Shown here: one piece after another, positions 5,761 through 31,520 of the stretch
How positions within the stretch are numbered: position 1 is the stretch's first letter
How the letters are laid out: each line of letters begins with the position of its first letter
Assembly (NCBI GenBank): GCA_016871415.1
Contig: VHDL01000004.1
Location: forward strand, 62,001-126,000
DNA from: Verrucomicrobiota bacterium
GTDB lineage: Bacteria > Verrucomicrobiota > Verrucomicrobiia > Opitutales > UBA953
Direction of reading: 5' to 3'
DNA length: 64,000 nt
Made by a program: the position numbers and the translations under genes
Notes under the pieces: generated by a model
Databases searched by the model: none
Told to the model about the DNA's origin: nothing
The model's input: only the letters and a program-made list of their open reading frames with translations

Positions 5761-6663
5761 TCAGCTTCCCTCGGCCTGTCGGCGTTCCAGCAGACGGAAC
5801 TTCACGGCCTGTTCGTCCGCACGGTAGGAGGAGCGCACGAGGGGGCCGGATTCGACGTGCTTCACTCCGGCCGCGAGCGCGAAGGCCTTCCACTCCGCGA
5901 ATTCGTCTGGATGCACCCACCGATCCATCGGGGCATGCTCCTTGCTCGGTGAAAGGTACTGTCCGATAGTCAGGATGTCCACGTCGGCCGCCGCGATGTC
6001 GCGAAGCAACGCGGCCACCTCCTCCTTACGTTCACCGATGCCAAGCATGACTCCGGTCTTGGTCACGAAGCCGCGTGTCTTGGCGTGCTTCAGCACCCAG
6101 AACGAGCGGTCGTAGCGGGCGGTCTTGCGGACGGGCCGCTGGAGGCGTTCGACGGTCTCCAGGTTATGGTTGAGGATGTCGGGACGGGCGTCCAGCAGGG
6201 TGTCGAGGTGCTCCTGTTCTCCGCGGAAGTCAGCCGGGAGCACCTCGACGGTGGTCGCGGGGCAGCGTCGGCGGGTGGCCCTGACGGTGGCGGCCCAGAC
6301 CGAGGCGCCGCCGTCCTTGAGGTCGTCCCGGGCCACGGAGGTGATGACGACGTGCTTCAGGTTCATCAGCGCGATCGACTCGGCCACGCGGGCGGGTTCC
6401 CCGAGGTCCAGCTCCGAGGGGCGTCCGGACTGCACGGCGCAGAAGGTGCAGGATCGGGTGCAGACGTTGCCCAGGATCATGACCGTGGCGCTGCCCCGCG
6501 ACCAGCATTCGCCCATGTTCGGGCACTGCGCGGACTGGCAGACCGTATGGAGCTTGTGGAGGTCCACGTTGGCCTTGGTGGCCAGGTATTCCGGCCCGCT
6601 GGGGAGCCTGGCCCTGAGCCAGTCGGGCTTGCGCGGGGATTCGAGCATCGGAGGTAGCAACAT
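5761..6663 (-). CDS. lipA: lipoyl synthase
   Basis: About 300 residues. Both iron-sulfur clusters are visible: the auxiliary cluster motif CQSAQCPNMGEC and the radical-SAM motif CTRSCTFC, followed by AVQSGRP. The C-terminal YHADEQ-like segment (here SSYRADEQAVKFR) is also typical. It inserts two sulfur atoms into octanoyl groups of lipoate-dependent enzymes. The frame is open to 6744, but the ATG at 6663 has AGGAAGGAA immediately upstream and gives the normal LipA length. The helicase start follows the stop by 2 bp, implying translational coupling. Confidence 0.96.
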   Translation of the reverse strand: MLLPPMLESPRKPDWLRARLPSGPEYLATKANVDLHKLHTVCQSAQCPNMGECWSRGSATVMILGNVCTRSCTFCAVQSGRPSELDLGEPARVAESIALMNLKHVVITSVARDDLKDGGASVWAATVRATRRRCPATTVEVLPADFRGEQEHLDTLLDARPDILNHNLETVERLQRPVRKTARYDRSFWVLKHAKTRGFVTKTGVMLGIGERKEEVAALLRDIAAADVDILTIGQYLSPSKEHAPMDRWVHPDEFAEWKAFALAAGVKHVESGPLVRSSYRADEQAVKFRLLERRQAEGS

Positions 6664-6700
6664 TTCCTTCCTTTCGGGTTTTTCAATCCAACAAAAGGGA

Positions 6701-6728
6701 GGGGCGCCCGTCTCACGACGGGCGCCCC
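6701..6728 (-). terminator. hairpin upstream of lipA, probable terminator
   Basis: Perfect 11-bp stem GGGGCGCCCGT/ACGGGCGCCCC with a 6-nt loop. Read on the minus strand it is followed by TCCCTTTTGTT, a modest U-rich tract. It lies between the outer-membrane protein gene and lipA and could stop readthrough into lipA or act as a leader structure. Confidence 0.55.
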
Positions 6729-6792
6729 TGGTGCTATGCTGCAATCTCCCGGTTCTGAAACTGTCTCAGGCCGGGAATTTCACCGACCACGG

Positions 6793-6820
6793 GGCCGGGC
6801 GTTCCGAAGAACGCCCGGCC
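6793..6820 (-). terminator. strong hairpin just after the outer-membrane protein stop codon
   Basis: 12-bp perfect stem (arm GGCCGGGCGTTC and its complement) closed by a CGAA tetraloop, starting 7 bp after the stop at 6827. There is no U-tract on the minus strand, so this may be an RNA-stabilising 3' end rather than an intrinsic terminator; the second hairpin at 6701-6728 may complete termination. Confidence 0.5.
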
Positions 6821-6826
6821 GGCAGG

Positions 6827-7740: not shown

Positions 7741-9186
7741 TCACCCGTGGGCTCCTGCTGCGCGGTAGGCCGTCACGTGCCTGTCGGCTGATAGTTTCCA
7801 GCTGAATTCGGTCCGCATGCCGTTGAGTTGCACTTTGCGATAGGCCTTCGGGTCGGAAAAGAGTTCCAAGGCGCGGCCGATCGCCCACTCGACACCCTGC
7901 AGGTCGGCGTGCTCGAAGACGATGCCGGTCGCATCCGTAGCACCGGGCGACCAAGGCCTCACCGTGTCGGCGAGTCCGCCGGTGGCCCGTACGACCGGCG
8001 GCGTGCCGTAGGCCATAGAATACATCTGATTGAGTCCGCAGGGCTCGAATCGGCTGGGCATCAGGAAGAAGTCGGACCCGGCCTCGATGCGGTGCGAGAG
8101 GCCGTGATCTAAGCCGATGCGTACGCCGCACAGGGAGGGAAATCCGGCGGCCAGGGCCCGGAACGCGCCCTCGAGTCCGCCGTCGCCGCTGCCCAGGAGC
8201 ACGAAGCGGAGTCGGCCGTCACGGAGGAAGGAGGGCAGAGCCGCGGCGGCCAGGTCGAGGCCCTTCTGATCCCACAGCCGTGAGACCACGCCGAAGATCG
8301 GGGGAGCCTTCGGATCGTCGCGCAGGCCGAATTCGCGGGCCAGGGCCAGACGGCACTCCTCCTTGCCCTTCATGCTCCTAGGGGAGAAGGGGGCTGCGAT
8401 CAGCCGGTCCGTGCGCGGATTCCATTCGTCAGTGTCTACGCCGTTGAGGATGCCTTCGAGGGCCGATTCCCTCCTGCGCACCACCGCTTCCAGTCCGTGT
8501 CCGAAGGCGGGCGTGAGGATCTCGCGCGCGTAGGTCGGGCTGACGGTGATGACCCGGGCCGCGTGCAGCACGCCTCCCTTGAGGAAGTTGACGCCGCCGA
8601 GGCACTCGAGCTCGGACGGCTGCCACAGCCAGCCGGGCAGGCCCAGGAAATCCATGATGCCTCGGTGGGCGACCCCTTGGTGCTGAAGATTGTGGATGCT
8701 GAGGACGCTCACGGCGCCGCCCAAGGGGCTTTCCTTGAGGACGGTGTTCAGCAGGGGCGGGACGAGACCCGCGGTCCAGTCGTGGCAGTGGATGACGTCA
8801 GGAATCCAGCCCGAGGCCAGGCAGGCGTCGAGCGCGGCGCGGGCGTAAAAGGCCGCTCGCTCCGCGAAGTCGGCCCGCGCAGGGTAGACTTCCTTGGCTC
8901 CATAGTAGTCGTCGTGCTCGATGAACCAGGCCTCGAAACCTTTGGATGCCTGCAGCGACAACACGCGGCAGGCGGCCTTTTCGGGCGGGCCGCCCACGCC
9001 GACCCTGAGCGAAGGCATGAGGACGGACATCCTTTCCCTGCCCGGCACCGAGCCATAGAGGGGCGTGACGGCCTTCACGTCATGACCCGACGCACCGAGG
9101 GCCTTCGCCAAGGCCGCGGTCGCGTCGCCGAGCCCGCCGGCCTTGGACCACGGCGCGAGTTCAGGCGTGACGTGCAGGATCTTCAT
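7741..9186 (-). CDS. glgA: glycogen synthase (ADP-glucose type)
   Basis: 481 residues, the normal GlgA length (E. coli 477). It opens with MKILHVTPELAPWSKAGGLG, containing the K-x-G-G ADP-glucose loop. The C-terminal GT-B half carries SRFEPCGLNQMYSMAYGT with the catalytic Glu, followed by TGGLADTV. It elongates alpha-1,4-glucan from ADP-glucose. The frame stays open upstream to 9990, but the ATG at 9186 overlaps the exosortase stop by 4 bp (ATGA) and starts exactly where homology begins. It is the last gene of the yej-exosortase run. Glycogen phosphorylase lies about 9.6 kb away on the other strand. Confidence 0.96.
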   Translation of the reverse strand: MKILHVTPELAPWSKAGGLGDATAALAKALGASGHDVKAVTPLYGSVPGRERMSVLMPSLRVGVGGPPEKAACRVLSLQASKGFEAWFIEHDDYYGAKEVYPARADFAERAAFYARAALDACLASGWIPDVIHCHDWTAGLVPPLLNTVLKESPLGGAVSVLSIHNLQHQGVAHRGIMDFLGLPGWLWQPSELECLGGVNFLKGGVLHAARVITVSPTYAREILTPAFGHGLEAVVRRRESALEGILNGVDTDEWNPRTDRLIAAPFSPRSMKGKEECRLALAREFGLRDDPKAPPIFGVVSRLWDQKGLDLAAAALPSFLRDGRLRFVLLGSGDGGLEGAFRALAAGFPSLCGVRIGLDHGLSHRIEAGSDFFLMPSRFEPCGLNQMYSMAYGTPPVVRATGGLADTVRPWSPGATDATGIVFEHADLQGVEWAIGRALELFSDPKAYRKVQLNGMRTEFSWKLSADRHVTAYRAAGAHG

Positions 9187-13759: not shown

Positions 13760-15042
13760 CGGTTGCGCTTGAGGTCGAACGCGTCCTGGAGTCCTTCGCC
13801 CACCGCGTTGATGAGCAGCATGAGTCCCACCAGGCAGGTCACGCTCGGGGCCAGGATCCACCAGGCCCCCAGGTTCTCGTTCGCCTGATGGAGGAGCTCG
13901 CCCCAGGTGGGCTCGGTGGGAGGGAGCCCGAACCCGAGGTAATCCAGGGAGGAGAGCGAGACGATGAGGCCGTGGAGGCTGAAGGGCAGGGTGGTCAGGA
14001 TCACGGTGGCGCAGTTCGGAAGCACGTGCTTCCAGATGATGCGGAGATGTCCTGCGCCGAGGGCGCGCGAGGCGGTCACGTAGTCCTTGGCCGCCGCCTG
14101 GTAGGCCGAGGCGCGCAGCTGCTGGGCGAGGCCGATCCAGGAGAACGCCACCAGCAGGAGCGTGAGCAGGGCCAGCGACGGCTCCAGCAGGCTGGCGAGG
14201 AGGATGATGGCGTAGAGGAACGGAACGTTGGACCAGACCTCCATCAGACGCTGCAGGACCATGTCGAAGCGTCCGCCGAAATAGCCCATCGCGCCGCCCA
14301 GGACGAGTCCGACGAGGTAGACGCCGGGGAGGTAGATGAGGGCGGAGATCAGCAGCAGCCGGAATCCGCCGAAGAGGCGGGCGAGGACGTCGTGACCGGA
14401 TTCATCGGTGCCAAGCCAGTGTCCGTCCAGTCCGGGCGGACAGGGCGACGGCACCTGGGTCCTGACGTCGCCTCCGGGCGTCCAATCCTTTTCATTTCCG
14501 GATTTGGAAGAAATGAAACGCCCCTCGGCGAACTTGGCCCGCGCGACGGTCGCTCCGCCCTCCGTCAGTCTGGCTTCGCCGTGTAGCCGTCCGTCTACGA
14601 CGTACCACGAGCGTGCGCGGGAACCGTCGGATGCCAGCGTGAAGATGCGTCCTTCGGTGATCGGCCCCCTGGGATCCGACCAGCGCCCGTCTTCGGACAG
14701 GAAGGCGCGTGGCTGCACTTCGCACACTTGTTCGGGCGAGAAGGGCACCAGTGGCATCAGCGCCCAGCCTCGCCCCTCGCGGCTCAGCTTCTCCGAGAGC
14801 AGCCGGTAGTCAGGCTCCCGCTTGCCCTCCATTCCGAATTCATCCGAGGCGATGAAGCCGGCGACCGCGGGGAATCTGAGTCCGCGTTCGGTGCTGACCA
14901 CGAGGGCGCGGTTGCCGACGAGCAGCGGGCCCAGCGCCGCCATGACGCAGAGCGCGCTCAGCGCGAGCAAGGACCACCATGCGCCCCGGGAGGCGCGGAA
15001 GCGCTCGAGTCGGCGACGGGTGAGCGGGTCGATCAGGCTCAT
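13756..15042 (-). CDS. peptide ABC transporter permease, YejE-like with enlarged periplasmic insert
   Basis: 428 residues against about 341 in E. coli YejE. TM1 (about 24-44) is followed by a periplasmic segment of roughly 170 residues before HWLGTDESGHDVLARLFGG, the conserved entry into the permease core. The core has five more TM segments and the EAA loop around ASRALGAGHLRIIWKHVLPN. YejE proteins normally have a shorter insert here; the extra part includes a segment RSWYVVDGRLHGEARLTEGG that resembles YwqK/MORN-like repeats. The start overlaps the yejB stop by 4 bp. It forms the translocation pore with the 15039-16292 product. Confidence 0.92.
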   Translation of the reverse strand: MSLIDPLTRRRLERFRASRGAWWSLLALSALCVMAALGPLLVGNRALVVSTERGLRFPAVAGFIASDEFGMEGKREPDYRLLSEKLSREGRGWALMPLVPFSPEQVCEVQPRAFLSEDGRWSDPRGPITEGRIFTLASDGSRARSWYVVDGRLHGEARLTEGGATVARAKFAEGRFISSKSGNEKDWTPGGDVRTQVPSPCPPGLDGHWLGTDESGHDVLARLFGGFRLLLISALIYLPGVYLVGLVLGGAMGYFGGRFDMVLQRLMEVWSNVPFLYAIILLASLLEPSLALLTLLLVAFSWIGLAQQLRASAYQAAAKDYVTASRALGAGHLRIIWKHVLPNCATVILTTLPFSLHGLIVSLSSLDYLGFGLPPTEPTWGELLHQANENLGAWWILAPSVTCLVGLMLLINAVGEGLQDAFDLKRNR

Positions 15043-16292
15043 CGTTCGCGGTCGAACCGGATGCGGGGGTCGGCGGCCGCCACGCAGAGGTCGGAGACGA
15101 TGTTGCCGATGAGCATCGCCAAGCTGGACAGGGTGAGCAGGCCGAGGAAGACCGGAAAGTCGCGGTGCACCATCGCGTCATAGCCGAGCAGGCCGATGCC
15201 CGGTATGCCGAAGGTGACCTCGATGATGAAGGATCCGGTCAGGAAGAAGCCGAGGTTGCCGCCCACGGTGGCCGCGAGGGGGATGAGGGAGTTCCGCAGG
15301 GCGTGGACGCCGACCACCCGGCTCCAGCCCAGCCCTTTGGCGCGGGCGGTGCGCACGTAATCCGCGGCGAGGTTGTCGAGCAGGCTGTTGCGGGTGAAGA
15401 GCGTGAGCGCCGTGAAGGAACCGATGGTCATGCAGGCCAAGGGCAGGGCGGTGTGGTGGAGGCGCCCGGCCCAGTCGAGCCGCTCCCAGTCGAACCCTTT
15501 GCTCGGGAACCATCCCATGCCATAGGCCAGGGTGTTGCGCAACACCACGGCCAGCGCGACGACGGGGATGGCGTAGAGGATGAAAAGGGCGAAGGTCGAG
15601 AGGCGGTCGAAGGCGCCGTCCTTGCGCAGGGCCTTGGCCACCCCCAGGGGCAGCGACACGCCGTAGGCCAGCACGATGGAGAGGAGGCCGAACCACGCGG
15701 AGAGCGGGATGCGTGAGACGACTTCCTCCCACACCGGGCGGTCGCTCACGGCGGAATCGCCCAGCTCCAACTGGAGCACGCCTTGGAAGGCGGGACGGTG
15801 CACGAGCACGCGCCGATCCTTGGACGGGTCGTCAGGCAACGGCGCGTCCTCCGCCACCCAGCCGGACGCCGTGCCGCCTTCCGTCGTCGAGACCTTGAGC
15901 AAGGTCCCCTCGGCCCTGACCTCGAGCTTGCGCACGCCCCCGGGCGAGGCGCGGTCGCGCACTTCCACGGTGGCGGATGACGACTTTGCCTCCAGTCGCG
16001 TCACGATCCAGTCGGACGGGCCCGGCCATGCGCCCAGCCAGACGGCGTAGGCTTCGATGAGAGGACGGTCGAAGCCGTAGCGGCGGCGGAGATTGTCGAG
16101 TTCCTCGGGTGAAGCGGGACCGTTCGGCCTTGCGCCGGTCGCGCTGCGCTTCCGGTCCGCCTGCTGGCGTTCCGCCATGGCCCGTTCGATGGGGCCGCCG
16201 GGAACGAGCCGCGTGAAGCAGAAGGTCACGAAGGTGATGCCCACGAAGGTCAGTGGGACCAGCAGCAGACGTCGCAGGACGTAGTCGCGCAT
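15039..16292 (-). CDS. peptide ABC transporter permease, YejB-like with periplasmic insert
   Basis: 417 residues against 364 in E. coli YejB. The N terminus (MRDYVLRRLLLVPLTFVGIT, then LVPGGPIERAM) and the family motif LRRRYGFDRPL are typical. A polar insert of about 90 residues (roughly 95-180) separates these from LELGDSAVSDRPVWEEVVSR and the five-helix core. The EAA loop reads RTARAKGLGWSRVVGVHALRN. It is the first gene of the minus-strand operon and lies 89 bp from the divergent aas gene. Matching insertions in both permeases suggest they pair in the periplasm. Confidence 0.92.
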   Translation of the reverse strand: MRDYVLRRLLLVPLTFVGITFVTFCFTRLVPGGPIERAMAERQQADRKRSATGARPNGPASPEELDNLRRRYGFDRPLIEAYAVWLGAWPGPSDWIVTRLEAKSSSATVEVRDRASPGGVRKLEVRAEGTLLKVSTTEGGTASGWVAEDAPLPDDPSKDRRVLVHRPAFQGVLQLELGDSAVSDRPVWEEVVSRIPLSAWFGLLSIVLAYGVSLPLGVAKALRKDGAFDRLSTFALFILYAIPVVALAVVLRNTLAYGMGWFPSKGFDWERLDWAGRLHHTALPLACMTIGSFTALTLFTRNSLLDNLAADYVRTARAKGLGWSRVVGVHALRNSLIPLAATVGGNLGFFLTGSFIIEVTFGIPGIGLLGYDAMVHRDFPVFLGLLTLSSLAMLIGNIVSDLCVAAADPRIRFDRER

Positions 16293-16313
16293 GGGGCGGG
16301 CACAAGGGCATCC

Positions 16314-16362
16314 GCCGCGACGGGGTTTTCAATCCTTAAGGACTCGCTTGCCCCGTCGCGGC
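16314..16362. promoter_or_regulatory. nested inverted repeat in the yejB/aas divergent promoter gap
   Basis: The 89-bp gap between the divergent genes contains two 12-bp perfect inverted arms, GCCGCGACGGGG (16314-16325) and its complement (16351-16362). A 10-bp perfect palindrome TCCTTAAGGA (16333-16342) sits almost exactly at their centre. This could be a dimeric regulator site or an RNA hairpin in either leader. No -10/-35 pair is convincing. The function is inferred from position and symmetry only. Confidence 0.5.
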
Positions 16363-16381
16363 CCGGGGGCATCTTGGATCC

Positions 16382-18712
16382 GTGAACGCCCTCGACCTGC
16401 TCGGACGTTGCCTGGCCGCGCTTGCCCTCTCGGCCGCCGGGCTCGTCCTGCTGACGTTGATGGCTTTCCTGGTGCTCCTCCTTGTCCGCCTGCCGGGCCG
16501 ACATCCGACCATGGGCCCCGGCTACTGCGCCGTCCGCACACTCTGCTGGATGTTCACGAAGGCCCTCTATCGTCTCAAAGTCGCGGGGCTTGAGAACGTG
16601 CCGGCGCAGGGCGGGGCGCTCGTGGTCTGCAACCACGTCTCCTACGTCGACGTCGTCATCATCGGCGTGGCCCTCGACCGTCCGGTGAGATTCCTTTCCT
16701 GGGAGGGGTTTGAGCGCGTGCCGGTGATGCGCCGCATCATGAGGATGATGGGCACAATTCCGGTGGCGGGCGACAAGGCCAAGGAGGCCGTGCAGCGGGC
16801 CGCGGACGCTCTCAGGGCGGGCGAACTGGTCTGCATTTTTCCCGAGGGGCACGTGACGCGCAACGGCGGCGTCCAGGAACTCCGCCGGGGGTTCGAGCTG
16901 ATCGCCCGTCGCGCGGGCGTGCCCATCCTGCCGATGGCCGTCGACGGGCTGTGGGGCTCGGTCTTCAGCTTCAGCGGCGGCAAGTTCTTCTGGAAGCGAC
17001 CCAAGCATTTCCCGCGGCCGGTCTCGTTGGTGGTCGGGCGCCCCTACCCGGTCGAGGAGCACCTCCGGACGCGCCTCCGTCTGCTCGAACTTTCATCCGA
17101 GGCCTTCGCGCTGCGACCCTCCTTGGACGGAAGCCTGGCCCGCGAGGTCGTACGCGGCCTGGCCGCTCGCGCGGGACGCGTCGTGGTCGTCGATCGCACG
17201 GCGCAACGCAGGGAGCTTTCCGGGGCGCTGCTGCTGGCGCTGGCCTCCGAGACCGCGCGCCACCTCAGATTCGCGACGGCCTCGGACCGTGTCGCCGTCG
17301 TGCTGCCGCCCGGAATCGGCGCCGCCGTGGCCAACCTTGGCTGCCTGATGGCGGGCAAGGTCCCGGTGAACCTCAACTTCACGCTGGGCAGGGAGCAGGC
17401 CGCGTCCTGCCTCCGTCGGGCCGGCGCCGAACTGCTGGTCACGGCGGAGGCCTTCCGCGCCAAGGTCGCTGAGAAGTCGCCTGACTTCCCCTGGGGAGAC
17501 CGGGTCTGCGACGTGGGTGAGCTGCTGAAGTCGGTCCCGCGTTGGCGACTGGCGCTCAAGGTCGCGGTGATTCGTCTGGCTCCGGCGGCGTGGGTTCCCG
17601 CGCTGCTGGGCGTATCCTCGCGCGGCGGAGACGACGAGGCGGCGCTGCTGTTCACCAGCGGCAGCTCGGGAGAGCCCAAGGGCGTGGCCCTTTCCCACCG
17701 CAACCTCCTGGCCAACATGCGTCAGATCGAGGACGCCGACATCCTTCCCGAGGACGCCGTGCTGCTGAGCAGCCTGCCCGTCTTCCACAGCTTCGGTTTC
17801 ACCGTGGGCGTCTGGTACGCGCTGTCCTGTCCCGTCCGGCTCGTGACGCTTCCCTCGCCCCTCGATTCCGCCGCGGCCGTGCGCGCGATCAGGGAGGAGA
17901 AAGTCACCGTCGTCGTGGGCACCCCCACCTTCCTGAGGCCTTACCTCCGTCGTGGCACCAAGGAGGATTTCGCCAGCCTCGAATGGGCCGTGGTCGGCGC
18001 GGAGAAGTGTCCCCAGGACCTGGTCGACGCCTTCCGCGACCAGCTCGATGTGCGCATGCTGGAGGGGTATGGCATCACGGAGACGAGCCCGGTGCTCTCG
18101 GTCAACGTGCCCGACCGTCCCGACCCCGGCGCCCCCAGCGGTCTCTGGACCGGCTGCGTCACGGGGTCGGTCGGACGGCCGGTGATCGGCGTGGCCGTGC
18201 GCATCGTCTCTCCCGAGGACGGCTCCGAAGTCGAACCCGGCGGCACGGGGCTGCTCGAAGTGCGTGCACCGAACGTGTTCGGCGGCTACCTGGGCGATCC
18301 TCGGCGGACCGCCGAGGCCTTCAGCGACGGATGGTATCGCACCGGTGACCTGGCCCGCATGGATGAGCACGGGTTCCTTTTCCTGGCCGGCCGCCTTTCG
18401 AGGTTCTCCAAGATCGGCGGCGAGATGGTCCCGCATGGCACGGTCGAGGATGCTCTCCGACGTGTGCTTAAACCAGACGAGTCGGCCGGCCCCGCGTTCG
18501 CCGTCTCCGCCTCTTCCGATCCCGTCAAGGGCGAGCAGCTCGTCGTGCTCCATGCGTGCGAGCTGGACGTCGATGCGGTCCGGGAGGCGCTCGGCCGGGA
18601 GGGCCTGGCCAACCTCTGGATTCCCAAGGTGTTCAAGAAAGTGCCCGCGGTGCCCGTATTGGGCACGGGCAAGCTGGATTTGAGCAGGCTCCGGGCCTTG
18701 GCGCAGGGCTGA
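16382..18712 (+). CDS. aas: bifunctional lysophospholipid acyltransferase / acyl-ACP synthetase, Aas-like
   Basis: 776 residues starting at GTG 16382. One N-terminal TM segment (about 8-35) is followed by a PlsC-type acyltransferase domain with the catalytic NHVSYVD (His85, Asp90) and [10 protein letters not shown] (about 153). An AMP-binding ligase domain follows, with [18 protein letters not shown] at about 423, GYGITETSP, and [20 protein letters not shown]. The same order occurs in E. coli Aas (719 residues), which re-acylates lyso-phosphatidylethanolamine using acyl-ACP it makes from free fatty acids. Membrane-remodelling is the likely role. Related fused proteins without proven specificity exist, so the exact acceptor is not certain. 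It is divergent from the yej operon and 41 bp before glgP. Confidence 0.85.
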
Positions 18713-30525: not shown

Positions 30526-30584
30526 TGTGAGGGTGGGTTGGAAAGCTCGCCTAGCCGGGGGTTGCCAGCGTCGGACAGGCGGCT

Positions 30585-31520
30585 ATGCAAAGTCCCGTGG
30601 CCGCGAAGAGCGAACCAAAACCCCACAGCGAGACGCAAGTCCGTCACCTTGAAACGGACATCGAGAATCGGCGTTCAAGGCGTCGTGCGGTCGTGGCCGA
30701 CGTGTCGGCCGATTCACGGCCCTGGATGCGCGCCGGGGTGCCCTGCCGTGAGCTGGCCCTCTTCGAAATCGCCCACCTGGGCTTGGCCGAGATGCTGCCT
30801 CCCTATGAGGTCATCCGGGACCGTCAGAGCGGCGCGTTCTTCATGGTGGGGCTGGGCGGACAGGGCCAGGTGCAGGTCGACGGGCGCTGGCGCGCGTTGC
30901 CCCCGGGTCACGCATGCCTGCTGCCCGCAGGGTTGCGCAACCGTTTCCGCATGGGGCGTGGCAAGCGCTGGGAGTTCGCCTGGGTGCGTTTTTCGGGAGG
31001 CATCCGCTCCAACACGATCTTCCGTGCGGGTTCGCCGGTGCTTGCAGAGTTCGATCCCGGACCCTTCCGCGCGGCGGTCGAAGGTCTGATGGCCGAGGCC
31101 GCGGGAGCCGGGTCCTCGCGCCGTGTCCATCAGTGGCTGGAGCTCGTCTACGACTATGTAGGCGGGTTTGCCGGGAGTTTCCGTGGGGATGAACGTCTGA
31201 TGCGGCTCTGGGACCTTGTGCAGTCGCGCCTGGCCGATCCTTGGGACATGCGGACGCTAGCCAGCGCCGCCGGCCTGAGCTTCGAATATCTGAGGCGTCT
31301 CTGTCTGAAGGAGATCGGCCGGACGCCCATGAATCACCTGACGCACCTTCGCATCCAGCAGGCCACCCGGCTGGTCGGGGAGTCGGACATCAAGCTGGAG
31401 GCGTTGGCCCGGCAGGTGGGTTTCGCCAACGGCAACAGTTTCGCGGCCGCCTTCAAACGGAGCACCGGGCACGCGCCCTCGCAATTCAGGGTCCTGCGGT
31501 CATCCGGACGCGCCTCCTGA
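30585..31520 (+). CDS. AraC-family transcriptional regulator
   Basis: 311 residues. An N-terminal cupin-like sensing domain (about 60-180; LPPGHACLLPAGLRNRFRMG) precedes a C-terminal double helix-turn-helix: first helix pair DMRTLASAAGLSFEYLRRLC, then IKLEALARQVGFANGNSFAA and FKRSTGHAPSQFR, the AraC signature. It is divergent from the TIM-barrel/Tm-1-like pair across 59 bp, so it likely regulates them and perhaps itself. It could also act on the large dehydrogenase gene 88 bp downstream. The ligand is unknown. Confidence 0.92.
   Translation: MQSPVAAKSEPKPHSETQVRHLETDIENRRSRRRAVVADVSADSRPWMRAGVPCRELALFEIAHLGLAEMLPPYEVIRDRQSGAFFMVGLGGQGQVQVDGRWRALPPGHACLLPAGLRNRFRMGRGKRWEFAWVRFSGGIRSNTIFRAGSPVLAEFDPGPFRAAVEGLMAEAAGAGSSRRVHQWLELVYDYVGGFAGSFRGDERLMRLWDLVQSRLADPWDMRTLASAAGLSFEYLRRLCLKEIGRTPMNHLTHLRIQQATRLVGESDIKLEALARQVGFANGNSFAAAFKRSTGHAPSQFRVLRSSGRAS

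Follow-up and report, generated by a model that had tools for sequence, protein, structure and literature searches.

A Conserved Block Between Divergent yejB and aas Genes in a Genus of Verrucomicrobiota Is Probably a Compact Back-to-Back Promoter Region, and the Inverted Repeat Around It Occurs in One of 51 Genomes

In this study, we analyzed the 89-bp gap between a yejB-like gene (ATG at 16292) and a divergently oriented aas-like gene (GTG at 16382) in a 64,000-nucleotide stretch of a Verrucomicrobiota genome (the window), together with the orthologous gaps of its genus. Our analyses suggested that the gap is probably a compact divergent promoter region in which two -35 elements stand back to back, and that the perfect 12-bp inverted repeat located there is either a functionless coincidence or the product of a template switch. 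The gene pair and a central block of the gap are conserved across the genus; the arms of the repeat and the structure predicted from them are not. The features are collected in Table 1.

TABLE 1. Features in and beside the yejB/aas gap, with positions counted in the window.
Feature	Position	Strand	Remarks
yejB-like peptide ABC permease gene, first gene of a yej-like operon	15039..16292	-	
Putative yejB -10-like box, TGCCCT	16305..16310	-	Resembles a sigma-70 -10 weakly; spacer of 16 nt
Left 12-bp arm	16314..16325	.	Within the variable spacer of the putative yejB promoter
Conserved block	16324..16354	.	Consensus of 43 genomes AGGGGTCAACCCGAAAGGACTCGGCTTGCACC
Putative yejB -35	16327..16332	-	TTGACC in 48 genomes; TTGAAA in this one and its two nearest relatives
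10-bp palindrome TCCTTAAGGA	16333..16342	.	
Putative aas -35	16348..16353	+	TTGCCC here; TTGC-any base-C in the other gaps
Right 12-bp arm	16351..16362	.	Covers the final 3 bases of the putative aas -35, then its variable spacer
Putative aas -10	16370..16375	+	CATCTT here, 6 nt before GTG; relatives have CAATTT, CACTTT, TTATCT or other forms
aas-like acyltransferase/acyl-ACP synthetase gene	16382..18712	+	Acyltransferase and AMP-binding domains

Conservation of the Gene Pair and of the Central Block

A search of 55 genus genomes, counting the present one, matched the yejB protein in every case. G060, G069, and G072 were left out, as their sole match was weak and probably a paralogue; upstream sequence was taken from the other 52, and one of these (G021), ending at a contig edge, was dropped, which left 51 readable gaps. 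In every one of the 51 genomes aas lies divergent from yejB. The named relatives in the public collection are MAGs or bins labelled Verrucomicrobiota, Opitutae, Opitutia or Opitutus, the isolate names of some of them indicate that the genus is probably a freshwater one, and the two nearest relatives show 85 and 82% identity over a 171-base query. The yejB orthologue of G020 (G020:C25:12414-13656) was matched in three pieces with one in-frame TGA and looks broken or misassembled. In both genomes of the sister genus, aas and yejB were located on separate contigs; TTGCCC precedes aas in both, and the yejB half of the block was not recognizable there.

The top NCBIfam match of the permease was YejB with 196.8 bits, under the model cut-off of 445, and the top match of the Aas-like protein was likewise under its cut-off. 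The Aas-like protein covers positions 384-1142 of the 1147 in the PRK08633 model, so that the N-terminal part of the longer form is absent. In Agrobacterium, YejBEF is described as recycling peptidoglycan together with YepA (PMC9790009, in excerpt), and for this reason we speak of peptide or muropeptide import for the yej operon.

The centers of 43 of the 51 gaps align to the block consensus without insertion, with 16 of 33 alignment columns invariant. Mean pairwise identity reached 86% in the block (insertion columns being taken in where both sequences have bases), against 53% in the spacer on the yejB side and 35% in that on the aas side; the first 12 coding bases of yejB stand at 97%. The block of this genome contains TTGAAA, TTGCCC and AAGGACTC, and the GGGG of the consensus has become a TTTT-like sequence here and in the two nearest relatives. 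These results bear out the original prediction as far as it described a divergent promoter-type gap, since both the gene pair and the central sequence are kept across the genus.

A single further divergent gap in the window (30526-30600) served as the control. Its flanking gene had matches in 37 of the 55 genus genomes; 30 of the 37 were fetched and 29 used, G063 being excluded because its gap was unrelated. In the same 29 genomes, the best 28-column window scored 0.845 in the yejB/aas gap vs. 0.627 in the control, and mean conservation over the whole gap was alike (0.600 and 0.585, respectively). The control gap has a similar layout in the 29 genomes, with GGGTTGC.C, TTAtgCAA and then GTG, and promoters with a TTGC-type -35 and a short leader may be usual in the genus.

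Two Proposed Outward Promoters

From the alignment we infer one promoter on each strand. TTGACC, which reads TTGAAA in this genome, stands on the minus strand 16 nt before TGCCCT, TGCCTT or a similar sequence, with the ATG of yejB next in line; the plus strand carries TTGCnC and, 16-17 nt beyond it, CATCTT, CAATTT, CACTTT, TTATCT or the like, and the start of aas lies within a few bases of this -10-like box in the present genome as well as in many others. The -10-like box of yejB (TGCCCT/TGCCTT) is a poor match, and a strict sigma-70 scan of 16150-16500 returned no promoter, so the case for promoters is one of conservation and position. RNA polymerase would use two neighboring promoters that point outward, TTGAcc reading left into the yej operon and TTGCnC reading right into aas, each with its -10-like box 16-17 nt further outward and each yielding a transcript whose 5' leader is very short or absent. 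The two -35 regions and the sequence between them would then make up the conserved block; the arms would sit mostly in the two drifting -10/-35 spacers without an evident role, and their perfect pairing would have arisen either by lineage-specific coincidence or through a quasipalindrome template switch.

Back-to-back promoters are known from the divergent gene pairs of E. coli (PMC4469952), and the present gap would resemble those pairs, as excerpts of that source present them, in placing two outward-facing promoters in one short head-to-head gap. It would differ from that account in the closeness of its putative -35 boxes, both inside a conserved block that is about 30 bp long, as well as in the very short leaders that we propose. 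The bidirectional promoters of Warman et al. are characterized, in the available part of the article, by one shared symmetric -10 and by start sites for which a distance of 18 bp is the most frequent (PMC12825309). Divergent transcription from a compact site would be common to both; in our gap, however, the putative -10 boxes are outermost and 59 bp apart, and by the definition given in that part of the article a gap with boxes so placed would not belong to this class.

A Possible Regulator Site Within the Block

Among the alternatives, the one that survives best holds that the block is the site of a dedicated regulator which binds between the -35 boxes and controls both aas and the yej operon, the palindrome being irrelevant; we consider this possible, though clearly less likely than two plain promoters. 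First, conservation spans the block center AAAGGACTC between the -35 boxes, where every column is invariant or at least 90% conserved in the 43 insertion-free gaps; such conservation beyond the need of two -35 hexamers suggests an additional binding site. Second, the block surpasses the one control gap in conservation. Third, a single convincing site was found in the genome itself, as a dedicated regulator could have. In addition, the block consensus is weakly dyadic, with an equal or higher score in 29 of 5,000 mononucleotide shuffles; yet the dyad is ordinary in many members, the fraction of 300 shuffles scoring as high being 0.96 in G000, 0.74 in G018, and 0.81 in G014. A reading of the block as one symmetric operator was rejected on this ground: the consensus is rarely matched by shuffles, but many members are without the dyad.

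Two further features speak against a regulator site. An insertion separates the halves of the block in 8 of the 51 genomes (G001, G002, G024, G028, G036, G064, G065, and G070), parting GGGGTCAAyC(C)CGAAA from the portion ending in CTTGCAC, which carries GACTC in 6 of the 8 and GTGTC in G064 and G065; the span from TCAA to CTTGC is 31-38 bases in these genomes vs. 24-26 elsewhere. A span of 34-38 in 6 of the 8 amounts to a gain of about one helical turn. Halves that can be parted in this way favor two adjacent promoters over one rigid operator. Moreover, GGTCGCTT stands in place of GGACTCGG in 4 of the 51 genomes (G019, G020, G022, and G031). A sigma-54 reading of the block was dropped because the GG-to-GC spacing was wrong.

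The bolder form of this alternative would make the block the single-copy operator of a candidate regulator linking the import of peptides or muropeptides (yej) with acyl-chain recycling (aas) throughout the genus, in small-genome, probably freshwater, Opitutia-like bacteria; we regard it as somewhat less probable still. Searches for further copies bear on its single-copy part. With at most 3 mismatches, AAGGACTCGCTTGC matched the genome itself 146 times in the forward and 132 times in the reverse direction, vs. 146 and 135 for a reversed control, and among the matches listed none had exactly 1 mismatch. A sequence model (R1) recovered the block at E 1.9e-5 and one weak match at E 0.29, which falls inside a 414-aa ORF; a second convincing site was thus found in this genome by neither the mismatch scan nor R1. 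Searching 273 genomes of the order returned 24 block matches at E<=0.01 under stricter filters, 19 of them in the genus, where one member (G064) was missed; the 5 matches outside the genus were partial, with 17-20 of 32 positions, and one of these (G237) straddles the junction of two successive ORFs. The half-site TCGGSTTGMMCCC, allowing at most 1 mismatch, was found 26 times vs. 25 for its reversed control in G063, 38 vs. 31 in G004, and 39 vs. 24 in G064, showing no clear enrichment in 2 of these 3 genus genomes. In G004, a superoxide-dismutase-like ORF has an exact TCGGCTTGACCCC 35 nt before its ATG, at promoter-like spacing, which fits the reading of the block as promoters. A literature search by titles and the openings of abstracts found no account of the yejB/aas gap, though one may exist.

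The Inverted Repeat

The original prediction had drawn attention to two perfect 12-bp arms around a nearly concentric 10-bp palindrome in the 89-bp divergent gap, and these are present as claimed. The arms GCCGCGACGGGG and CCCCGTCGCGGC are complementary at 12 of 12 positions with 25 nt between them, and the center of TCCTTAAGGA is offset from theirs by 0.5 bp. Arms of at least 12 bp arose in 9 of 20,000 dinucleotide shuffles of the gap, and arms of at least 10 bp in 107. The symmetry was also said to be unlikely by chance, which holds for any single gap, where 12-bp arms are improbable, but not for the genome, over which roughly half a case is expected by chance, given an estimated 1,000 or so gaps per 2.2-Mb genome.

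In the window as a whole, 5 repeats with arms of at least 12 bp and loops of 3-60 nt were counted, where 60 shuffles averaged 0.7 (sd 0.74), and 3 of the 4 others have 4-nt loops. Three perfect inverted repeats with 12-13-bp arms (6202-6249, 6700-6729, and 6793-6820) are clustered inside a stretch that a crude gene call leaves gene-free (5921-6826); the two of this cluster with 4-nt loops could be terminators. Copies of TCCTTAAGGA with one mismatch, the same in both (TCCTTGAGGA), occur at 1911-1920 and 8732-8741, giving 3 matches in the window in total vs. 0.57 expected, a number reached in 2 of 100 shuffles.

The inner 10 bp of the arms, 10-40 nt apart, occur at a single place in the 2.21-Mb genome, and the 11-mer ATCCTTAAGGA has one additional place, on contig C20. 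A REP element or other dispersed repeat was ruled out on this single copy, a check that the original prediction had proposed.

In an ungapped comparison with the relatives, the arm positions are complementary at 12 of 12 in this genome, the next best value is 7 of 12 (3 of the 51 genomes) and the commonest is 3 (14 of the 51); in the other 50 gaps no arms longer than 7 bp flank the conserved block, vs. 12 bp here. The longest inverted repeat of any kind, over a stretch reaching past the aas start, measures 12 bp here, 9 bp in G029 and 4-7 bp in the other 49, and that of G029 consists of unrelated arms with a 19-nt loop at a different place, extending to the aas start. Arm positions differ from the two nearest relatives at 10 and 11 of 24, compared with 15 and 12 of the 65 remaining gap positions, so that differences are roughly twice as frequent in the arms as elsewhere in the gap. 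TCCTTAAGGA is exact in this genome only, and the other 50 gaps have forms such as CCTTTAAGGA, CCCTTAAGGA, TCCGAAAGGA and CCTTGAAAGGA. The arms and the palindrome were therefore seen in this genome alone among the 51, an absence from close relatives that the original prediction itself had named as refuting it, and the palindromic operator that it proposed for both genes loses its ground with a dyad in 1 of 51 orthologous gaps.

It could still be argued that the nested palindrome is a recent, species-specific operator or cruciform coupling both genes. The rarity of such arms in shuffles of the gap would fit, as would the 49-mer, which is predicted to fold strongly as RNA from either strand (z -5.55 and -6.07), but the palindrome is found once in this genome and in none of the other 50, and its arms lie mostly within promoter spacers, which makes this explanation very improbable. 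We give even less credit to the idea that the hairpin gives the mRNA of yejB or aas a structured leader, be it an attenuator or a riboswitch, a role also suggested by the original prediction: the whole gap of this genome has a predicted fold (z -2.58 on one strand and -2.71 on the other), but folding over the 51 gaps is no better than in shuffled sequence (mean z +0.25), with z below -2 in only this genome and G033, whose predicted structure differs; Rfam gave no match at the repeat site, a search of 16150-16500 found no terminator-like site, and the hairpin would be part of neither mRNA, because the proposed start sites lie outside the arms.

The arms could have originated by template switching. 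Quasipalindrome template switching is reported, in the portions available of PMC7202029 and PMC8604942, to make the arms of an inverted repeat more alike in one lineage. The relatives of this genome show no clear imperfect precursor in the ungapped comparison.

Implications

These findings demonstrate that a nested palindrome that looks rare can be the accident of one genome, and that it takes an alignment of relatives to bring out the likely functional signal beside it. Should the conserved block serve as a shared control site, the uptake of cell-envelope peptides would be linked to lipid repair in uncultured Verrucomicrobiota.
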